This document shows, piece by piece, positions 11,401 to 57,635 of a stretch of 64,000 bases of DNA. Numbering within the stretch: position 1 is the stretch's first letter; each line of letters begins with the position of its first letter. The position numbers were made by a program, and so were the translations under genes. The notes beneath the pieces are model-generated. The model saw only the letters and a list, made by a program, of their open reading frames with translations, made no database searches and was not told where the DNA came from. The DNA is from Arctopsyche grandis (lineage: Eukaryota; Arthropoda; Insecta; Trichoptera; Hydropsychidae), in contig NC_135356.1 of NCBI RefSeq assembly GCF_051622035.1, positions 2,108,001-2,172,000 on the forward strand, given 5' to 3'.

Positions 11401-12905
11401 TTGTTTAATGTATTATTATGAATTTGAATTAAAATACTAAACTAACAAAAATATAATATTGAAATTCTTTAGAGCACTGACACGTCGATTTTTTCCAGAA
11501 AAAACATAAAAAATAAAAAAAAAATCATATATATTTTGTTTTATGGTTTGTATTGCTATGAAAGATTTTCAGGAGATTATTTTGTACTTTATATACACCT
11601 ATTTTTCTAATATAATACACCCCCCCTCCTAGAAATTCATTCCTTACTGGTCAAAAATTTTGCCCCCGTCCCTGGGAAAAGCTGAAAACACGCCCCTGCA
11701 TATTAAGCAAATTTTAATTAAAATCAAATTATAATGTTTTTTTTTTATATTAAACACGTTTTCAAATATTTAATATTTTCACTACCTACAATTTCATAGT
11801 ATTTTTTTTTATTGTTATTTTCAGATATTGCTGAAGATGGATTTCGACGCAAGGAAAATCGAGGAACTAATTGATCTAAATTAACGCCGTTAATTGATCT
11901 AAATATACCGCCATTTTTATTTGAGATCGATCTTTACTGCTAATTTTCTTATACCCGAGGCCAGATCTTTCGAACCCAACCCCTCTACATCCGTCTATTC
12001 GGATAATTCTCTTTATTCTTCTTATGAATCTATAATCCGGCACTTGTCTGTAATGCACATTTGGAGACAATATGTATATACCCAAAGCACATCAGTGCAT
12101 ACTGTGTGGTATTTGGTTTTACAGAAAAAGGACGCTTATGCAGCACTTATATTTCAAACACGGCATCGTGAGTTTCGAGAAGTATGAGATATACATAAAC
12201 TATTACTACAAAGATGAGAGTACGGCTGATCGCTGTTCCGAATGATTCCGAATTTAGACCTTGTCGCCGGCATAAACAATCAAACTTTCACGTTTTTATT
12301 GTATAAGTTACTCTATTTAGTCATTGAGAATACTTGGCCAGAATGTGGTTGTGGGGCTATCGAAAATTATTTTTTAGTTCAACGAGAATACTTTAACTTG
12401 TACACATTTAGTTTATTGTTATAAATTGCTTTCGATAGCCACCAGTTATTATTTGTATTATATTGTTACGATTATTATACATACTTGTTATTTAGTATTA
12501 CAATATTCATAAAGTTGTGATCTCCCCCCCCGTAAAAATAGTATTACAAAAAAAATAATGTAAAATATATATTTTCATTGAGAACAAAAGAGTGTATTTA
12601 TTAAAAAATAATCATTATGCATGTACGTGAAGATTTACACAAAAATGTAGATACAAATATGAGTATCACACAGAAAATTCCTCTTAATGAAACATCCAAA
12701 CATGGAAATTGCTTCAGCAACGGCCGTCTACCATTTGTGATGGTCATTCTTTTCTTACATTATTGGGCCAAAGAATTGACGTCAATTCAATTGTGCAAGT
12801 AGATATAGCAGGCAAAATCGATGAATGATTGTTTACAAAGGGAGAAAATAATTAAATAAAATAGCCTTTTTCAATACCAAATTATATTTCGATTAAATCT
12901 TCAAG
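11401..12905. other. Intergenic stretch, no supported gene
   Basis: AT-rich. A possible short exon-like piece after TATTTTCAG at about 11,823 reads KMDFDARKIEELIDLN and then stops. It faintly recalls the start of MADF-domain proteins, but nothing around it extends the domain. I do not call a gene. Confidence 0.35.
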
Positions 12906-12919
12906 TTACAGATAGACTT

Positions 12920-15240
12920 TGTATATTTTAGATTTCATGCTTAATAACAAAAAATTAAACTCACTGGTATAGTATTATATAACTGTAATTAATACCCTAA
13001 CCGCAAATTAAAAAATCACAATATTTAATTAACAAATATCATATTGAATTTATCAGTCTTATATGTTATCGGAACAACTGACCAATAGCTAATACATACA
13101 TTCTAAAAAAACATATAATAAAGGGGTGTGTATTAAACACACCATATTTATTTATATATATTTTAGCTATCAAGCTAATTTAAAAATACATCTTAATTAT
13201 TATACTTAACTCTAAAATTTATAATTAACTTATATGTACTGTCCCTCACAGAGGTGTCTCTTCGCACCTCGCAGGAATGCATCCATGTTTTTAGCAGACC
13301 TGACTGCACTCAGGGAGGGCGTTATACATGAGCACACCCCTGTGAAAAACACCCCCAGCCGTCTTATTCTTTCTTACTCTACTTACAACTAGTTTGTCCT
13401 TATTTCTAGTATCAAAACTATGTTTATCTCTATTCCTTATTATATAATCATCAAAATACTTAGGTAATAACTTATGATCTAACTTATAAACAAAAGACAA
13501 TGTACTAATATTTAGACTAATTCTAATACTCATCCATCCTAATTCATCTAACATACTTCCAATACTCTTAAATCTACTCACATTCAAAATAGCTCTCATA
13601 GCTTTATTCTGTATTTTTTGCATTTTTTCTAAATCTTGGCCACTAAACAAATTAAGCACAGTGGCACAATAAACCACATGTGGCAAGACAATTGAATTAA
13701 ACACTAAAATTTTACTTTTTTTACTTAAAATATTTCTTAATCTACATAATACACCAACTTTTCTAGCCATTTTTTTTATTATATAGTCAGCGTGCATTTT
13801 AAAATTTAGTCCTGAATCTATGTATACACCTAAGTATTTTATATTTTCAACTTTTTCAATTAACTTATCATCAATTCTAATTTCATTCAATATATTTTTA
13901 TTTTTACCATTCAACCACATCATTTTTGTTTTATTCACATTCAACTTTAATTTATTTTCACACAACCAGTCATTCACATAATTTAATTCTATATTTAAAA
14001 TCTCAGACATTACATCAACATTCTTTCCAATTATATATATATATATATATATCAATGTATCATCTGCAAAAAAATGTATTTTACACATCTTAATTACCTT
14101 AACAATATCATTTATATATAATATAAATAATAAGGGTCCCAATTTGGACCCTTGCGGCACTCCATGAGGTGTTACAAATTCAGAGGATAACACCTTATCA
14201 ATTTTTACTATTTGCCTTCTATTATTTAAGTATGATTGAAGCCACTTTAATACTATACCATTTATTCCTAACTTATATAATTTTTGTAATAAAATATTCC
14301 TATCTACTGTCTCGAAATGTATCTATTGTATATGTGGTTGAAATTATATTAAGAACTATCGCATTGCACTTATCAGTCTTATTAATTGAACTTACTAATT
14401 ATTAATACATATGTATGTATGTAAAAAGGCACATAATTTTGTTTCGCCAATCACAATATTCAATAGCTATGATATAAGGCTACATTCACGTATACTAAAT
14501 ATTATAATGAGATGTTACGCAAAAGAGGTCCACATCAAATACAAAAATTATTAAGGAAATTCTACTCTAACATCAGTCTAATTCTTTGAACATAAATGTT
14601 TAATATATAAATATTTTAGATTTCATACTAAATAACAAAAAAATAAACTCACTAGTATAGTATTATATAACTGTAATTAATACCTTACACCACAAATTCA
14701 AAATTCATATTCTATAATAAAAATCACGATATTTTCTTAAACAATATTCAATTAACAAATATCATATTGAATTTATCAGTCTTATATGTATCGAAACAAC
14801 TGACCAATAGCACACAATACACACACATTCTAAAAAAACATACAATAAAGGGGTGTGTATATCAAACAAACAATATTCAATTAAAAAATACCATATTGAA
14901 TTTATCAGTCTCATATTATTGTAACAACTGACCAATAGCTAATACATACACATTCTAAAAATCGTACAATAGAAGGGCGTGTATCGAACACACCATATTT
15001 GGTTGAAATATGTATGTAGGTGCATTCTATTAACAATTATCACATTGAATCAGTTTTATTGATTACTACAATTACTAATGCATATGCACATATGTATAAA
15101 GGCACATAACTTTGTTTCACCAATCACAATATTCAATAGCTACGCTATATAAAGCTACATTCATGTAAAATACTAAATATTGAAATGAGATGTTACCCAA
15201 AAGGGGTCCACATCAAATATTAAGTATTATTAAGGACATT
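12920..15240. repeat. Direct tandem duplication (two units), first unit split by a LINE
   Basis: Unit A (12,922-13,149 plus 14,317-14,558) and unit B (14,606-15,236) share the same order of landmarks. These are TTTAGATTTCATRCT, AACTGACCAATAGC, GGGGTGTGTAT, CCAATCACAATATTCAATAG and GGTCCACATCAAATA...TTATTAAGG. Unit B also contains an extra ~125-bp internal repeat (about 14,880-15,000). The array lies directly downstream of the stop codon of the minus-strand microexon gene, so it could include duplicated 3' flank. Confidence 0.8.
13150..14316 (-). mobile_element. CR1/Jockey-like LINE, 5'-truncated copy 1
   Basis: The minus strand encodes about 300 residues of reverse transcriptase. RT motif B is HGVPQGSKLGPLLFILYIND, and the catalytic FFADDTLIYI follows. 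The thumb and C-terminus include MRAILNVSRF and GVFHRGVLMYNALPE. The 3' end is an AAATAAAT-rich tail. It is truncated at RT motif A (begins in FETVDR) and shares nearly the same sequence with the longer copy at 25.85-27.78 kb. It was inserted into unit A of the tandem duplication. A TA microsatellite directly after the FADD codons encodes YIYIYI and stays in frame here. Confidence 0.9.
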
Positions 15241-15275
15241 AAGAAAAAAAGTATTATCGATGCACAGTTGATGAT

Positions 15276-18200
15276 TCAGAATTCTGGCTGAGGTCTTGAA
15301 TACGGGTGATAACGAGGAAATCGCCTTTTTTGCAACATTTTTGATTGCCGAAACGCCAACCTGGGTATTGGAGGATTGACATAAAAGTAATTATTAATGC
15401 AGCAGATGATTAATAATAATGTGTACATAAATATAAATATGTATTGTGCAAGCACGACTTACATTTCTGAAGCCATCGGTGATCCCACACTAAACGGTTC
15501 CACGTCGCTATCCGAGCTGAAATTTTAATGCGATTGCGATTACTAACATAACCAAAATGTTATAAACAATATACAGATAGAAGCGATTTACTTTTCTGGC
15601 GAGCTTGCTTCCTCGCTGCTAGACCTGAAAGTAAAGCGATTGTAATTATGAATATTGTCAAACATCAATAAGTAATAATACGCATAATATAAACAGCTAC
15701 ATCTTACTTTTCGGATAGCGGTGTCCAATCTTGACTATTGGTTTCTACATCGCTGTCAGAGCTAAAATTTAAATGCAATCGCCATTATAAACATATCCAA
15801 GAATTGATAATAATACAGAAATAACAAACTTACTCTTCTGATGAGGATACAGCCTCGCTATTAGACCTGAAAGAATGATAATTGTAATTATTAATATTGT
15901 TGGCCATTGATAAATATTAATATACATATGTAAGTGGCTACAGCTTACTTTTCAGATACCGTTGTTGAGTCTCGACTCTTGGTTTCTAAATCTCTTTCTA
16001 AATCAGAGCTGAAATTTAAATGCAATCGCCATTATAAACATATCCAAGAACTCATAATAATCTTCTTCTTCTTGTTAATGCCTTGTCCGCATCCGGACGT
16101 TGGCGACCACCTCGTCGATTATTCGAATATATCCGCATCGGTCTTCAGCGGCTCGGAACAGCTCTTCGGCGCTCATATCGGTCCACATGCGCATGTTTCG
16201 AAGCCAAGATAACTTTTTCCTGCCAATCCATTTTTTTCCTTCTATTTTCCCCATGGTTATCAAACGGAGAAATTCGTATTATGGACCCCGTATCATGTGT
16301 CCGAGGTACTCCATCTTTCTCCGCTTGATGACAGAAACAAGTTCCCTGCCTCTCCCCATCATGCCGAGGACAGCTTCGTTTGATATCTTTTTGGTCCACG
16401 GAATCTTCAGCATACGCCTATAGACCCACATCTCAAAAGCTTCAATGCGGCTGATCATCTTGGTTTTCAGAGTCCACGTCTCACATCCGTGTAGTAATAC
16501 TGTCCAGACGTAGCTCTTCGCGAATCTCAACCGCGTATGAAGATTGAGATGCTTGTTTGTAAGCGCCGCCTTCATTTTTACAAATGCTGTTCTAGCCATC
16601 TCGATGCGGATTCTTAGATCTTCATCTGGGTCCATCTCTTCATTCAGCCAGGTACCCAGGTATTTGAATCTTTTTACTCTTTCTATCACCTCTCTGCTAA
16701 ATTTTCAGCGACTATTGCCGTGTCATCAGCATATCTTATATTGGTGATCGTCTCGCCGCCCATCTTGATGCCCTCCGCCTCTTGGAGAGCATCGTGGAAG
16801 ATGGATTCGGTGTAGGTGTTAAAAAGAGTAGGTGATAGGATGCATCCTTGCCTGACGCCCCGTTCTATAGGAATCTCATCAGTGAATTGATCATCGACAC
16901 GTACTACTGCAGTCTGATTCCAATAAATATTTCGTAGCAATCTGACATCTCTGTCATCCAGGCCAATATTTTTTAATGTTTCCATCAGGCGAGCGTGTTG
17001 GACATAATAATACAGAAATAATAAATCAGTGTGGCTTACTCTTCTGACGAGGATGCAGCCTCGCTATTGGACCTGAAAGAATGGTAATTGTAATGATTAA
17101 TATTGTCGGCTATCGACAAATATTAATGTATGTAAGAAGCTACAACTTACTCTTCGGATAGCGTTATCCAGTCTCGACTATTGGTTTCTACATCGCTGTC
17201 AGATCTGAAATTTAAATGCAATCGTCATTATAAACATATCCAAGAATTGATAGTAATACAGAAATAATAAAACAGTGTGACTTACTAGGATGCTGCCTCC
17301 CTATTGAAACTGAAAGAAATATATTTATGATGATTAATATTGTCAGTAAAGGATAAACATACACATGCAAAGCATAGGCACTACTTACAGTATCGATGGC
17401 GTTGTCGTGCTTCGACTAATTTCATTATCATTCTCCGAGCTGAAATTTAAATGCAATCACCGTTATAAACACACCCAAGATTTGATTAATATATAAATAG
17501 ATGTCATTTACTGTATCGACGAGATCGATTCCTCGGTGATAATCCTGAAAGTAAAGTGAATGTGTTCGTATGAATATTTTCAATCATCGATAATAATTTA
17601 TCTTACACATTCTGTAAAACAACTCACGTATTGTATACCGTGATTAAGCTTCGACTCCTGATTTCCTCACAGCTATCCGAGTTGAAATTTAAGAAGCGAT
17701 TGCGATTATTAACATACACAAGAAATGATAATAACACAAAACATAGTATAAATATATTTCATTTACATTATCAACGAGCTGACTGACTCGGTGATAAACC
17801 TGAAAGTAAAGTGAACGTTAATATGAATATTTTCAATCGTCGTTAAATAATCGTACGCAGACATTAAGTAAATATTATTACAACTCACGTTTCGCATTGT
17901 GTTACCGAACGTTGACTACCCATTTCCATGCTTCTATTCGAGCTGAAATTTAAAAGCGATTATTAACATACACAGGAATTGATAATAAGACTGTGTGTAA
18001 ATAAATAAATATAAATGTGATTTACTTTGTTGATGAGCTCGCTGTCTCGTTGAAAAACCTGAAATTGAAGTGAACGTCATGATGAATATTTTCAATCATC
18101 GTCAACTAATGTTACACACACTGTATATGTAAGTAAGTACATATGTATAAAAACTGACGTTTGGCATTGCGTAACCGAGCTTTGTCTCCTCATCTTCACA

Positions 18201-18360
18201 CACACACACACACAGCTATCCGAGCTGAAATGTAATTAATTAAAAAATGCGATCGAGATTGTTTCGAATGTAGTGTATACAAGCGATCGTGCGCACACAA
18301 CTACTCGCGACCGAGGCCACACACCGACTGTGGCATTTGCTCGCTACACTCGTTACTCAT
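15276..18360 (-). CDS. Putative microexon gene: acidic Ser-rich repeat protein (~261 aa)
   Basis: Predicted exons, 5' to 3' on the minus strand: 18305-18360 (ATG), 18159-18224, 18026-18058, 17889-17942, 17767-17799, 17628-17681, 17512-17544, 17389-17439, 17286-17309, 17151-17204, 17040-17072, 15949-16008, 15834-15866, 15708-15761, 15592-15624, 15463-15516, 15276-15360 (TGA). Long exons (51-66 nt) alternate with 33-nt exons. Almost all have TTTCAG/TTTTAG acceptors and GTAAGT/GTAAAT/GTGAGT-type donors. Every internal exon length is a multiple of three and every junction has the same phase. Long exons encode peptides such as SDSDVETNSQDWTPLSE; short ones such as SNSEAVSSSE. The tail RQSKMLQKRRFPRYHPYSRP is basic. 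No signal peptide, membrane segment or known domain is seen. Oddities: exon 17286-17309 gives a TAA if joined to the next exon, and exon 17628-17681 has AA instead of AG as acceptor. The 5' exon and the transcription itself are inferred. Confidence 0.62.
15463..18224 (-). repeat. Tandem array of eight ~245-bp exon-pair units
   Basis: Long-exon starts recur at 238-270 bp spacing (252 bp across the LINE once its 950 bp are removed). Each unit contains a long exon, an intron with TTATAAACATAYCCAAGAAT-like sequence, a 33-nt exon and a second intron. Units on the left (15.4-17.2 kb) are more alike than those on the right, so the array seems to have grown at its 3' end. One unit carries a (TG)n expansion inside its coding exon (about 18,197-18,214). 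Confidence 0.85.
16061..17002 (-). mobile_element. RTE-type LINE, truncated copy inside the microexon array
   Basis: The minus strand encodes RT sequence with GVRQGCILSPTLFNTYTESI (motif B) and IRYADDTAIVAE (catalytic YADD). FKYLGTWLNEEMDPDEDLRI, IEAFEMWVYRRMLKIPW and GKIEGKKWIGRKKLSW follow, as in RTE/BovB-like C-termini. About 150 nt are deleted after the YADD region. An 8-bp direct repeat CATAATAA flanks it (16053-16060 and 17003-17010), and the neighbouring array units show the empty intron sequence. The insertion is therefore younger than the array and lies in an intron. Confidence 0.92.
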
Positions 18361-18414
18361 ACATAACATTCATAATTCCGTCCATTACTTTCGACATATT
18401 AAATAATATTTAAC

Positions 18415-19330
18415 CCTTTGCAACCGGATAAATAATTTTGTTTTCGATTGTATTTTATAAATTATCATTTTGATCGATAAAATGTAATTATTAAAATTTT
18501 ATACGTTAAAAAACAAAATAATATTTAAACTGTTGTCAACCGGATAAATAAGTATATTTTTTCGATTGCATTTTCTAATTCAAAATGTATTTCTAATTTT
18601 CGATCAGACGCATGACCGTGACCCGAAACGATCGAAAAAAATAGCGAGCATTATCGGCAATTATTGACGGTAATTCCCGGCTAGTTTGTGAGTCGTTTGT
18701 GCTATAATTTCGTTCACGGATTGATAGAAAATTTCACTCACCGAATAAAATGCTAACGAAATGAAAATCGTATTTGAGTATGAAAATAAAATGAACTAGC
18801 GAACGAGAACGCCCACGGTAATTACAGCTCAAAATAAATGGTAAATTAATAGGAAAGAATTCGACTGCCTGCAGTCGGAATTTTAAGGCCTGAAAAAATA
18901 TATGAATTAATATTGACACGCATTCAAGTATAACTTTGAACTCATTCCCCTCAAAGTGGATTTTCATTATGCAAAACATATCAAATACATACATTTTAAC
19001 ATATGTTTTTGGCAAATGGAGTTGAAAAAATTTATACTAAATCAATCACGAGAATAAAATCATTTTATAGAGTATGCCATTATTTTAATATATCTGCATA
19101 TAATATAATAAAAAAAATAGCTCGAGATGAATTTCCACGGTGCATAATAAAAAGCAAAAATTTCAAGTTTGTTAAAATTGACATTACTCAAATTTTTATT
19201 TAATACTCAAATTTTCTACGTTTAGAAATAAAATAAAATTTAAACTGTTGTCAACCGGATAAATATTATTTTTTCAATATTTATAAATCAAATGCATTTT
19301 GATCGATAAAATTTACTTTACTCTTTGAAT
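18415..19330. repeat. Dispersed TCAACCGGATAAATA repeats, otherwise no gene
   Basis: The block CTGTTGTCAACCGGATAAAT followed by TTTTCRAT..ATTTTGATCGATAAAAT occurs at about 18,415-18,490, 18,530-18,595 and 19,235-19,315, spaced by unrelated AT-rich DNA. The piece TTAACCCTTTG at 18,410 resembles piggyBac-type ends, but I found no partner. No coding exon is supported. Confidence 0.55.
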
Positions 19331-19334
19331 TTTA

Positions 19335-19520
19335 TTTTCAGATTCGGTTCCAGATTCTTGTTTCAGTCCCGATTCCTTTTTCAGTTCTGGATCCCGATTC
19401 CTGTTTCAGTCCCGTTTTCTTTATCAGTTCCAGATCCCGATTCCTTTTCCAGTTCCATATCCGGATTTTTTTTTTAATTTCCGCTTCCAGATTCCATTTT
19501 CAGTCCCGACTCCTTTTCAG
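19335..19520. repeat. Degenerate minisatellite (CAGTCCCGATTCCTTTTTC-like units)
   Basis: Around eight imperfect repeats of a 22-26 nt motif built from CAGTYCCGATTCC and CAGTTCCRGATCC. No reading frame is conserved across the units. Confidence 0.75.
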
Positions 19521-19654
19521 AAAAACCAAAAATTTCCGAAAACCCGTTATTAAATAACTGGTTTTCGTCTAAAAATTCATATAATATATGTACATATTTT
19601 CAAAATAATTTTTTTGAAAAAATATTGAAAACCCATTGTTCCAAATTTGGGGTG

Positions 19655-20408
19655 ATACCACTGCTTTTGGCGTGTATTTAATTGATCAGTCATTTATTCA
19701 GCTTTTGATCAACAAAAATAACTAAATTGTCAGTAAGTATTTTAAATGATCAATACGCTTTGATTATATACTCAATTAGTTATTATATACTCAATTATTA
19801 AACTAAATGATCATTGTAATGAACGATATTACGCGCGTCTTTATGCAGAGGGCGTGATATATCGTTATTCTTCCAAAGAGTCAAGTTAGGTGGAAACGTG
19901 GACTAACCTTGGGGTAGTTGTATTAATGTATATAGTCTGGGAGGTTCCTGACTGCAAGTCGTGTGCGTTGATAACAGCTTCTCCAGAAGCTGGCCCTGTG
20001 GTTTCGTCACAGCAGCGGGAGGGGGAGGCAGGAGACAAACTCCGTACTGCCTCGTGTGGACACAAGATGGCGACCTCTGGGCGTCTCTGAAGCGCTCGGC
20101 GGAGGTGCTGGAGGGAGGTCCTTCCCGGTTGGAAGCTGGCGAAGAAGAGGCCACGTCTCGATCCTTCTCGAGGCGGGTAGTGTGTTTCGCGCGGTAAAGT
20201 AGTTGGTGCCAACCTAAAGGTTACCACCGCTACCAACTTAAGGGACACTTGGGAGAACGTCGCGTTACATCATATAATAAAATGAAACGGTCGATGATCA
20301 TTATAACGTGATCGGTAATATCATTTAAATATTATCATTTCATTTTGACATCCAGAAAATTGTCAGTGCCGCCATATCGCATTATGACCCCTAGTATAAA
20401 AAATCCTG
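19655..20408. mobile_element. TGATCAGT-rich repeat element, copy 1 (interrupted)
   Basis: Matches 41.73-42.0 kb through TTATTCAGCTTTTGATCAAC, AATAAAATGAAACGGT and CATATCGCATTATGRCYCCT. It is split by a solo LTR (19815-20269) and then by the RTE-type LINE starting at about 20,409. Part of the second half (GCGGGGCGACGCGCTATCAT) appears past the LINE at 22,086-22,140. Unknown family, no coding capacity. Confidence 0.65.
19815..20269. mobile_element. Solo LTR (455 bp) with 4-bp target duplication
   Basis: Starts TGTAATGAACG and ends CGTCGCGTTACA, with TCAT on both sides (19811-19814, 20270-20273). The second copy of the host repeat at 41.8-41.9 kb has the uninterrupted site (ATGATCAG-ATAATAAAATGAA). 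It is GC-rich compared with its surroundings. A 4-bp duplication and TG..CA-type ends suit Ty3/gypsy-like or Bel-like elements. No internal region is left. The reading frames on both strands here are chance frames. Confidence 0.88.
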
Positions 20409-21677
20409 AAATGAAAAAAATCAAATACAGATGCTCGGGATAAGCGAAGCTAGATGGCCTGGAGCTGGAAAAACGACGCATTGCAATAGATATACGACTT
20501 ATTACTCGGGATCGCTTGACGACACTCATAAGAATGGTGTTGCTGTGATTCTGGAAGACGACATCAGTAAAAGTGTGAGAAACTTTATTCCGTTATCTGA
20601 ACGAGTCATGATGATACAATTGGCAGGAAAACTTATAAATTTTAACATAATACAAGTGTATGCCCCCCACTTTCGATAAAGAAGAAAATGAGATTGAAGA
20701 ATTTTATCAACAAATCAAAGAATTTATGACATATACGAAAAAAAATTATGTTAACATTATAATGGGAGATTTCAACGCCAAAGTTGGAGACGAAGAAACA
20801 CCTACTCTTTTTTACACCTACACCGAATCCATCTTCCAAGATGCTCTCCAAGAACCGGAGGGTATCAAGGTGGGCGGAGAGACCATTACCAATATAAGAT
20901 ATGCTGATGACACGGCACTAGTCGCTGAAAATTTAGCAGACCTGCAAAGATCTCTAGACCGTGTACATCAAGAAAGCAATCGAAGAGGTCTGCGCATAAA
21001 TCTAAAGAAGACAAAATTTATGATAGTAGATAGAATGCAAACAGACACCGGGTGATTCCCGGATGGAGAGGTGATAGAAAGAGTAAAAATATTCAAATAC
21101 CTGGGTACCTGGCTGAATGAAGAGATGGACCCAGATGAAGATCTAAGAATCCGCATCGAGATGGCTAGAACAGCTGATAGATGGCTACAAACAAGCATCT
21201 CAATCTTCATACGCGGTTCAGATTCGCGAAGAGCTACGTCTGGACAGTATTGCTACACGGATGTGAGACGTGTACTCTGAAGACCAAGATGATCAGCCAC
21301 ATCGAAGCTTTTGAGATATGGGTCTATAGGCGTATGCTGAAGATTCCGTGGACCAAAAAGATATCGAAGCTGTCCTCGGCATCATGGGGAGAGGCAGGGA
21401 ACTTGTTTCTGTCATCAAGCGGAGAAAGAGTACCTCGGACACATGATACGAGGTCCAAAATACGAATTTCTCCGTTTGATAACCATGGGGAAAATAGAAG
21501 GAAAAAAATGGATTGGCAGGAAAAAGTTATCTTGACTTCGAGACATGCGCATGTGGACCGATATGAGCGCCGAAGAGTTGTTCCGAGCCGCTGAAGACCG
21601 ATGCGGATATCTTCAAATAATCGACGAGGTGGTCGCCAACGTCCGGATGTGGACAAGGCATTAACAAGAAGAAGATA
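20409..21677 (+). mobile_element. RTE-type LINE, internally deleted copy
   Basis: The N-terminal half encodes an apurinic-like endonuclease with MLGISEARWPGAG and the motif IIMGDFNAKVGDEE. It then jumps straight into the RT palm near TLFYTYTESIF and IRYADDTALVAENLADLQRS, so most of the RT fingers and palm are deleted. The C-terminus is FKYLGTWLNEEMDPDEDLRI and later parts, in broken frames. The 3' end AACAAGAAGAAGA runs into (TA)n. Same family as 16061-17002. Not functional. Confidence 0.9.

Positions 21678-29624: not shown

Positions 29625-57635
<28,011 letters not shown>

Follow-up and report, generated by a model that had tools for sequence, protein, structure and literature searches.

A dispersed family of predicted tandem phase-2 microexon genes in Arctopsyche grandis, one member of which is probably decaying

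Introduction

Arrays of small symmetric exons are found in the vertebrate genes for casein, elastin and fibrillar collagen. The products of these genes are secreted, caseins carry clusters of phospho-serines, and the exon phases are other than those of the family described below. The closest described systems are the bicycle genes of aphids and the micro-exon genes (MEGs) of schistosomes. According to the parts of PMC9168663 on which we draw, the bicycle genes of Hormaphis cornu have about 17 exons on average, and their small internal exons are almost all in phase 2; they are named for their CYC motifs, many of them encode signal sequences, and in some homologues the CYC motifs are degenerate or unclear. 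In the same parts of that source, phase-2 microexon architecture serves as an argument for homology among plant-effector genes. In schistosome MEGs, as described in the sections of PMC4671649 cited here, the microexons are shorter than 36 bp, and 26 of the 33 in the set described are symmetric.

Here we analyze a window of 64,000 nucleotides of the Arctopsyche grandis genome (positions 2,108,001 to 2,172,000 of NC_135356.1, contig C2 in what follows). An earlier note, made from the letters alone, had proposed a tandem microexon gene on its minus strand. The proposal was of the right kind, in that relatives elsewhere in the genome share the architecture and one of them has an intact frame; several of its details have to be revised.

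Results

All 17 exons of the earlier note were found at their places, each once, on the minus strand. Fifteen of them are internal and alternate between long and short, with eight long exons and seven short ones (six of 33 nt and one of 24 nt). In the following list, R1 and R2 are the models that the exons match:

18363-18397, minus strand: alternative first exon, found by eye (ATGTCGAAA..TTAT, then GTATGAGT), with a phase 2 end
18305-18360, minus strand: candidate first exon of the earlier note, more plausibly a remnant of the leader (5' untranslated), its donor being poor
18159-18224, minus strand: exon 2, long, 66 nt, with a TG run inside (R2)
18026-18058, minus strand: exon 3, short, 33 nt (R1)
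17889-17942, minus strand: exon 4, long, 54 nt (R2)
17767-17799, minus strand: exon 5, short, 33 nt (R1)
17628-17681, minus strand: exon 6, long, 54 nt, acceptor broken to AA (R2)
17512-17544, minus strand: exon 7, short, 33 nt (R1)
17389-17439, minus strand: exon 8, long, 51 nt (R2)
17286-17309, minus strand: exon 9, short, 24 nt, forming TAA with exon 10 (R1)
17151-17204, minus strand: exon 10, long, 54 nt (R2)
17040-17072, minus strand: exon 11, short, 33 nt (R1)
15949-16008, minus strand: exon 12, long, 60 nt (R2)
15834-15866, minus strand: exon 13, short, 33 nt (R1)
15708-15761, minus strand: exon 14, long, 54 nt, acceptor TTTTAG (R2)
15592-15624, minus strand: exon 15, short, 33 nt (R1)
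15463-15516, minus strand: exon 16, long, 54 nt (R2)
15276-15360, minus strand: exon 17, last exon with TGA and a basic tail, aligned with the last exon of the relative L026
15122-15152 (G000:C2:2123122-2123152), minus strand: 31-base 3' element, shared without change by six C2 members
14723-14947, minus strand: copy of the 3'-tail repeat of the family; others at 14343-14561 and 13017-13161, and a tandem repeat at 14739-14984

The length of every internal exon is a multiple of three (15/15) and all of them are in phase 2, meaning that two codon bases are left over at each exon boundary; exon 17 ends in TGA in that same phase. Length changes inside the exons of the array also come in multiples of three, exon 9 being 9 nt shorter than its kin. 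The introns measure 72-102 nt, with the exception of intron 11, which measures 1031 nt. Searching the window with R1 and R2 at E values up to 1 returned the 15 known exons and five weaker cross-hits on them, and no further exons elsewhere in the window. No Rfam element reached the gathering threshold in 12500-20000.

A chain of splice sites produced by chance was ruled out by a test of length and frame and by shuffling. In the test, each strong acceptor was paired with the next strong donor, and length and frame were left free. Twelve of the 15 internal exons of the window lie above the splice thresholds, exons 2, 6 and 9 having weaker acceptors. All 12 passing pairs are divisible by three and all 12 are open in the phase-2 frame; read in the other two frames, the same pairs are open in 3/12 and 7/12 cases. 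Outside 14901-18700, neither strand of the window contains an acceptor above threshold. The longest chain numbered 13; when the array, freed of the LINE, was shuffled 300 times with dinucleotides roughly preserved, it was 0. Since the splice matrices were trained on exons of the window and its relatives, absolute scores favor these exons; the length and frame result is unaffected by that training. The window exons are mutual copies of one pair, and thus not independent. Better evidence comes from the relatives L026 and L056, in which 13/13 and 10/10 pairs, respectively, are multiples of three (9/10 of those in L056 being open). Together these two loci contain seven exon lengths (33, 42, 48, 51, 54, 57 and 60 nt), all of them multiples of three. 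Across 21 short loci, most of which lie on C6, 54 of 57 exon pairs are multiples of three and 53 of 57 are open.

The array is not a lone gene. A single-copy gene is ruled out by relatives on several contigs: DNA searches of the 475.7 Mb genome with the array found them on C2, C5, C6, C9, C10, C12 and C13. The exon pattern AATTTCAGCTCNGANAGCGAYNNNGA, with up to two mismatches allowed, has 77 matches genome-wide, and its reversed control has 0. When matches within 10 kb are joined, the 77 fall into 33 clusters, of which the window array is one; 20 clusters are on C6, six on C2, three on C9, and one each on C5, C10, C12 and C13. The 31-base 3' element occurs exactly in eight places, all on C2, namely in the six C2 members and in two tail copies that adjoin the member at 3.57 Mb. 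A search with up to three mismatches added 12 tail copies with 2-3 mismatches, also on C2. Because all matches to the element lie on C2, the members that keep the 3' end appear to be confined to this contig.

Several of the relatives are incomplete or damaged. Read by eye, L047 and L022 (C6), L052 (C9), L049 (C5) and L024 (C10) comprise only two to five exons each; some of these fragments have lost splice sites or contain in-frame stops. The second-last exon of L056 (C2:3.58 Mb) is interrupted by TAA, as is that of its twin L031, and L057 (C2:533 kb), again by eye, has kept the start exon and has an in-frame TAG and lost donors. Among the six C2 members, a whole intact frame was seen only in L026 (C2:3631493-3633757). 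This gene consists of 15 exons (a first exon of 374 nt, 13 internal exons of 33-60 nt and a last exon) and reads through 352 codons from ATG to stop with no internal stop; none of its 105 possible joins creates a stop. In its inverted twin L055 (C2:3569756-3572016) the acceptor of exon 6 has been lost through a 25-base deletion. The twins differ by 31 substitutions, 28 of which lie in one 245-nt tract where exon 5 of L055 reads like exon 3, so that conversion between units is the likely cause. We rejected the low coding divergence of the twins (Fisher p 0.0004) as proof of selection on account of this concentration of 28/31 differences in a single tract.

Some further observations concern this part of C2. 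An inverted duplication at G000:C2:3565-3637 kb holds two family genes (at about 3570/3633 kb and 3582/3616 kb); one inverted pair is 99.9% alike over 2349 nt, and the other has a difference tract. Downstream of the gene, the 3' tail of the family forms a satellite-like array (G000:C2:3564566-3569187 and 3634322-3636665), with copies mostly 536-608 bases apart. The 31-base element of these satellite copies differs from that of the gene copies mostly in that AAA replaces GTA at the center of a small palindrome. Just upstream of a family array, at about 1802-1978 of the locus L056 (G000:C2:3579.8 kb), there is another Ser/Asp/Glu-rich frame with a basic end (MYSPYDSEPSSDTEMASDAET..KRAKRMRVSNR), which has no Pfam match.

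Among aligned exons of the family, most of the invariant columns lie in splice sites and flanks. In an alignment of 14 short exons with their flanks, 10 of the 13 fully invariant columns lie in splice sites or flanks, and only GAG is invariant inside the exon. For 12 aligned long exons, the corresponding figure is 15 of 19, and only T, GA and A are invariant inside. Pooling 14 exon pairs gave a pS of 0.33, a pN of 0.20 and a dN/dS of 0.54 (Fisher p 0.002); these pairs were picked by hand and, although no exon was used twice, they share ancestry. Single comparisons range from 0.11 to 1.09, several being near 1 (1.05, 0.97 and 1.09).

The window copy itself has several defects. The frame had been described as open through the full chain, which does not hold: the final TA of exon 9 and the first base of exon 10, an A, together read TAA. 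Full inclusion of the exons would yield 134 aa. Joins of exon 9 to exons 11, 13, 15 and 17 give TAG, which makes five stop-creating joins out of 136 possible ones, all involving exon 9. The claim that any internal exon can be skipped is therefore right for 131 of 136 joins in the window and for 105 of 105 in L026, and wrong for those five. At the acceptor of exon 6, AA stands in place of AG (score -2.2).

The start of the gene is also affected. The first exon at 18305-18360, which had been said to fit independently, has a donor score of -0.6, and the alternative at 18363-18397 one of -4.8, whereas the 25 donors used for training range from 7.5 to 14.5. The sequence at 18305-18360 can be aligned to the leader that precedes ATGGCC in the relatives L026, L057, L047 and L022, although the alignments of both candidate first exons with the leader are weak (E 0.007 to 0.0002). 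L047 and L057 carry AAG where the alternative first exon has its ATG. In the relatives, the start exon, beginning with ATGGCC, lies further down from the leader; no copy of it was found in the window. A search of the 2.5 kb upstream (18225-20700, minus strand), with limited donor patterns, yielded no first exon ending in phase 2 whose donor scored higher than 4. The window exons contain 208 internal codons and no stop among them, an outcome with a probability of 0.17 under 7% neutral change, and hence use of the window copy is neither proved nor excluded by this count.

Intron 11 contains a LINE fragment flanked by 9-base duplications, which was absent from the earlier note:

17003-17011, minus strand: target-site duplication ATTATTATG, on one side of the LINE
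16062-17002, minus strand: 5'-truncated recent LINE fragment, 941 nt, with reverse-transcriptase remnants and an AAG-rich tail
16053-16061, minus strand: target-site duplication ATTATTATG, on the other side

An open reading frame lies within it at 16279-16689, and pieces 98-100% identical to it occur at many places in the genome. LINE reading frames that by eye resemble it, in the opposite orientation, are present on the plus strand of the window at 20660-21594.

The predicted product is rich in serine and acidic residues. Ser/Thr and Asp/Glu make up 24% and 12% of the L026 protein and 33% and 19% of the window chain. Sites of the type S/TxxD/E number 19 in L026, compared with 10.5 in shuffles (P 0.0015), and 21 in the window chain, compared with 14.5 (P 0.018). 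By the charge-hydropathy line, a simple disorder call, the window chain falls on the disordered side and L026 as a whole slightly on the folded side (0.424 vs 0.413). The L026 protein starts MANPNPNPNGGSGSG, and the most hydrophobic 10-mer of its first 70 residues is at residue 58 (mean 1.12). As judged by hydropathy, it thus has no hydrophobic start; the start of the window copy is itself uncertain. Neither the L026 protein nor the window chain contains a CYC motif. A known domain was considered and set aside, since both sequences fall below every Pfam cut-off. L026 was also compared with the PDB, where no match was convincing, the best one (E 0.0037) being on the low-complexity start. Together, these properties might fit a protein that acts inside the cell, is phosphorylated and flexible, is rich in Ser, Asp and Glu, and has acidic-kinase-type sites as well as a basic tail.

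Other features were recorded in passing. The plus-strand open reading frame at 33408-34115 of the window matches Pfam PF14222 (cell morphogenesis N-terminal), and we take it to belong to a furry-type gene; further plus-strand frames up to about 57000 may be exons of this PF14222-type gene, and those at 30681-31463 and 46891-47361 have no Pfam match above the cut-off. A short degenerate GTTAGG run at 38356-38415 resembles insect telomere repeats. In a 42.7-Mb contig, the locus at G000:C1:36082829-36087169 contains an intact mitochondrial-type COX1 frame of 512 aa (TGA read as Trp), and further frames that resemble COX2, ND2 and ATP6; it is either a nuclear copy of recent origin or a join made in assembly. 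Two COI primers of Diaphorina citri do not match this locus, with 5 and 7 mismatches of 20 at best.

Discussion

Our results place the window array in a family spread over several contigs. A family gene would consist, as in L026, of a start exon beginning with ATGGCC, an array of short and long phase-2 microexons and a short basic last exon, and it is presumably transcribed and spliced as predicted. With a single phase at both ends of all internal exons, the frame survives when exon pairs are duplicated, converted, deleted or skipped. What our data support is a mechanism of gene evolution in which symmetric phase-2 exon pairs are the units that multiply, convert one another, shorten by multiples of three and get lost, with the length and sequence of the array turning over fast and the splice sites and phase staying fixed. 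We consider it likely that this is a family of Ser/Asp/Glu-rich proteins evolving through the copying, converting and loss of symmetric exon pairs, and that the window copy is a decaying member. Its decay is indicated by four observations: no start exon was found, exons 9 and 10 join to TAA, the acceptor of exon 6 is AA, and a recent LINE sits in intron 11. The earlier suggestion that this locus could yield many isoforms accordingly gives way to that of a copy that is probably decaying, although the window copy may still be in use with exons 6 and 9 skipped.

How a living window copy would work can be spelled out. An ATG newly arisen in the former leader (18360 or 18397), or one lying farther upstream, would serve as the start, and splicing would leave out exons 6 and 9 and give rise to many isoforms. 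Such use agrees with the absence of stops from the 15 internal exons in their common phase, with 131 of 136 joins making no stop, with length changes inside the exons that keep to multiples of three, and with the phase-2 end of either candidate first exon. The two candidate donors, on the other hand, score far below those of the family, neither candidate ATG is common to the aligned relatives, and the upstream search described above, with its limited donor patterns, produced no better first exon; we therefore regard a living copy as unlikely. One could go further in the opposite direction and regard the whole family as a dead, tandem and dispersed repeat, the splice sites of which are kept only because the copies are young. 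In favor of this, the dispersed copies that we read through are all incomplete, and in some of them donors are broken or stops interrupt the frame; satellite repeats of the tail lie downstream, and within an array one exon unit seems to have been converted. However, youth of the copies would have to be reconciled with seven exon lengths in L026 and L056 that are all multiples of three, with a fully intact frame of 15 exons and with the pooled dN/dS of 0.54, which makes a dead repeat improbable.

Homology with the aphid family, in the form of a divergent bicycle-type gene for a secreted effector, would account for the small internal exons that are all in phase 2, for the number of exons (about 17) and for a dispersed multigene family, as reported for bicycle genes in the parts of PMC9168663 cited here. 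The lack of a CYC motif is not decisive in this respect, because homologues with degenerate or unclear motifs are among those reported there. Nevertheless, the intact relative L026 has neither a CYC motif nor a hydrophobic start, and a shared phase follows from the copying of a single exon pair and needs no homology, so that we hold such a relationship to be very improbable. A more ambitious proposal, which as a whole we also find rather unlikely, is that of a new insect family unrelated to bicycle genes and MEGs, in which the phase-2 microexon pair is the unit of evolution, with arrays that expand, convert between units, shed exons harmlessly and scatter fragments over the chromosomes, and which encodes fast-changing, non-secreted, phosphorylated and flexible proteins, has a conserved 31-base 3' element and includes the window copy as a possible isoform generator that skips its damaged exons. 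The reading that we prefer is still that of exon-pair turnover in a family to which the window contributes a probably decaying member. No description of such a family appeared among the papers that our searches of the open-licence PMC literature listed.

Frame-neutral exons of this kind make a case for studying tolerance to damage, since exons 6 and 9 of the window and exon 6 of L055 could drop out harmlessly as far as the frame is concerned. For comparison with the MEGs, we use the sections of PMC4671649 cited above. The family resembles them in having longer outer exons, a central run of tiny symmetric exons and frame-neutral skipping. It differs in that all 15 internal exons of the window are symmetric and are tandem copies, eight of them measuring 51-66 nt and seven falling below the 36-nt limit within which MEG microexons, most of them symmetric, are found. 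Furthermore, MEGs are described in these sections as shorter and secreted, whereas L026, judged by hydropathy, lacks a signal peptide in its 5' exon.

The likeness to bicycle genes, which the earlier note had raised without claiming homology, is stronger in structure than it had proposed, as far as the parts of PMC9168663 cited here allow the comparison: small phase-2 internal exons make up 15/15 of those in the window (24-66 nt) and 13/13 of those in L026, and the number of exons is close to the bicycle average. Fast-changing sequence, a dispersed multigene family and repeated units, as in megacycle, are shared as well. The likeness does not extend to the product, as the L026 protein and the window chain are free of CYC motifs and L026, on hydropathy, has no N-terminal signal sequence. 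Unlike in bicycle genes, the exons of the window family are plainly copies of a short and long pair, and the 3' end is kept by few members. From this family it would seem that a symmetric exon pair copied in tandem can mimic the bicycle signature with no CYC motif or signal peptide detected, and homology searches based on structure only may therefore need a control for tandem copies.
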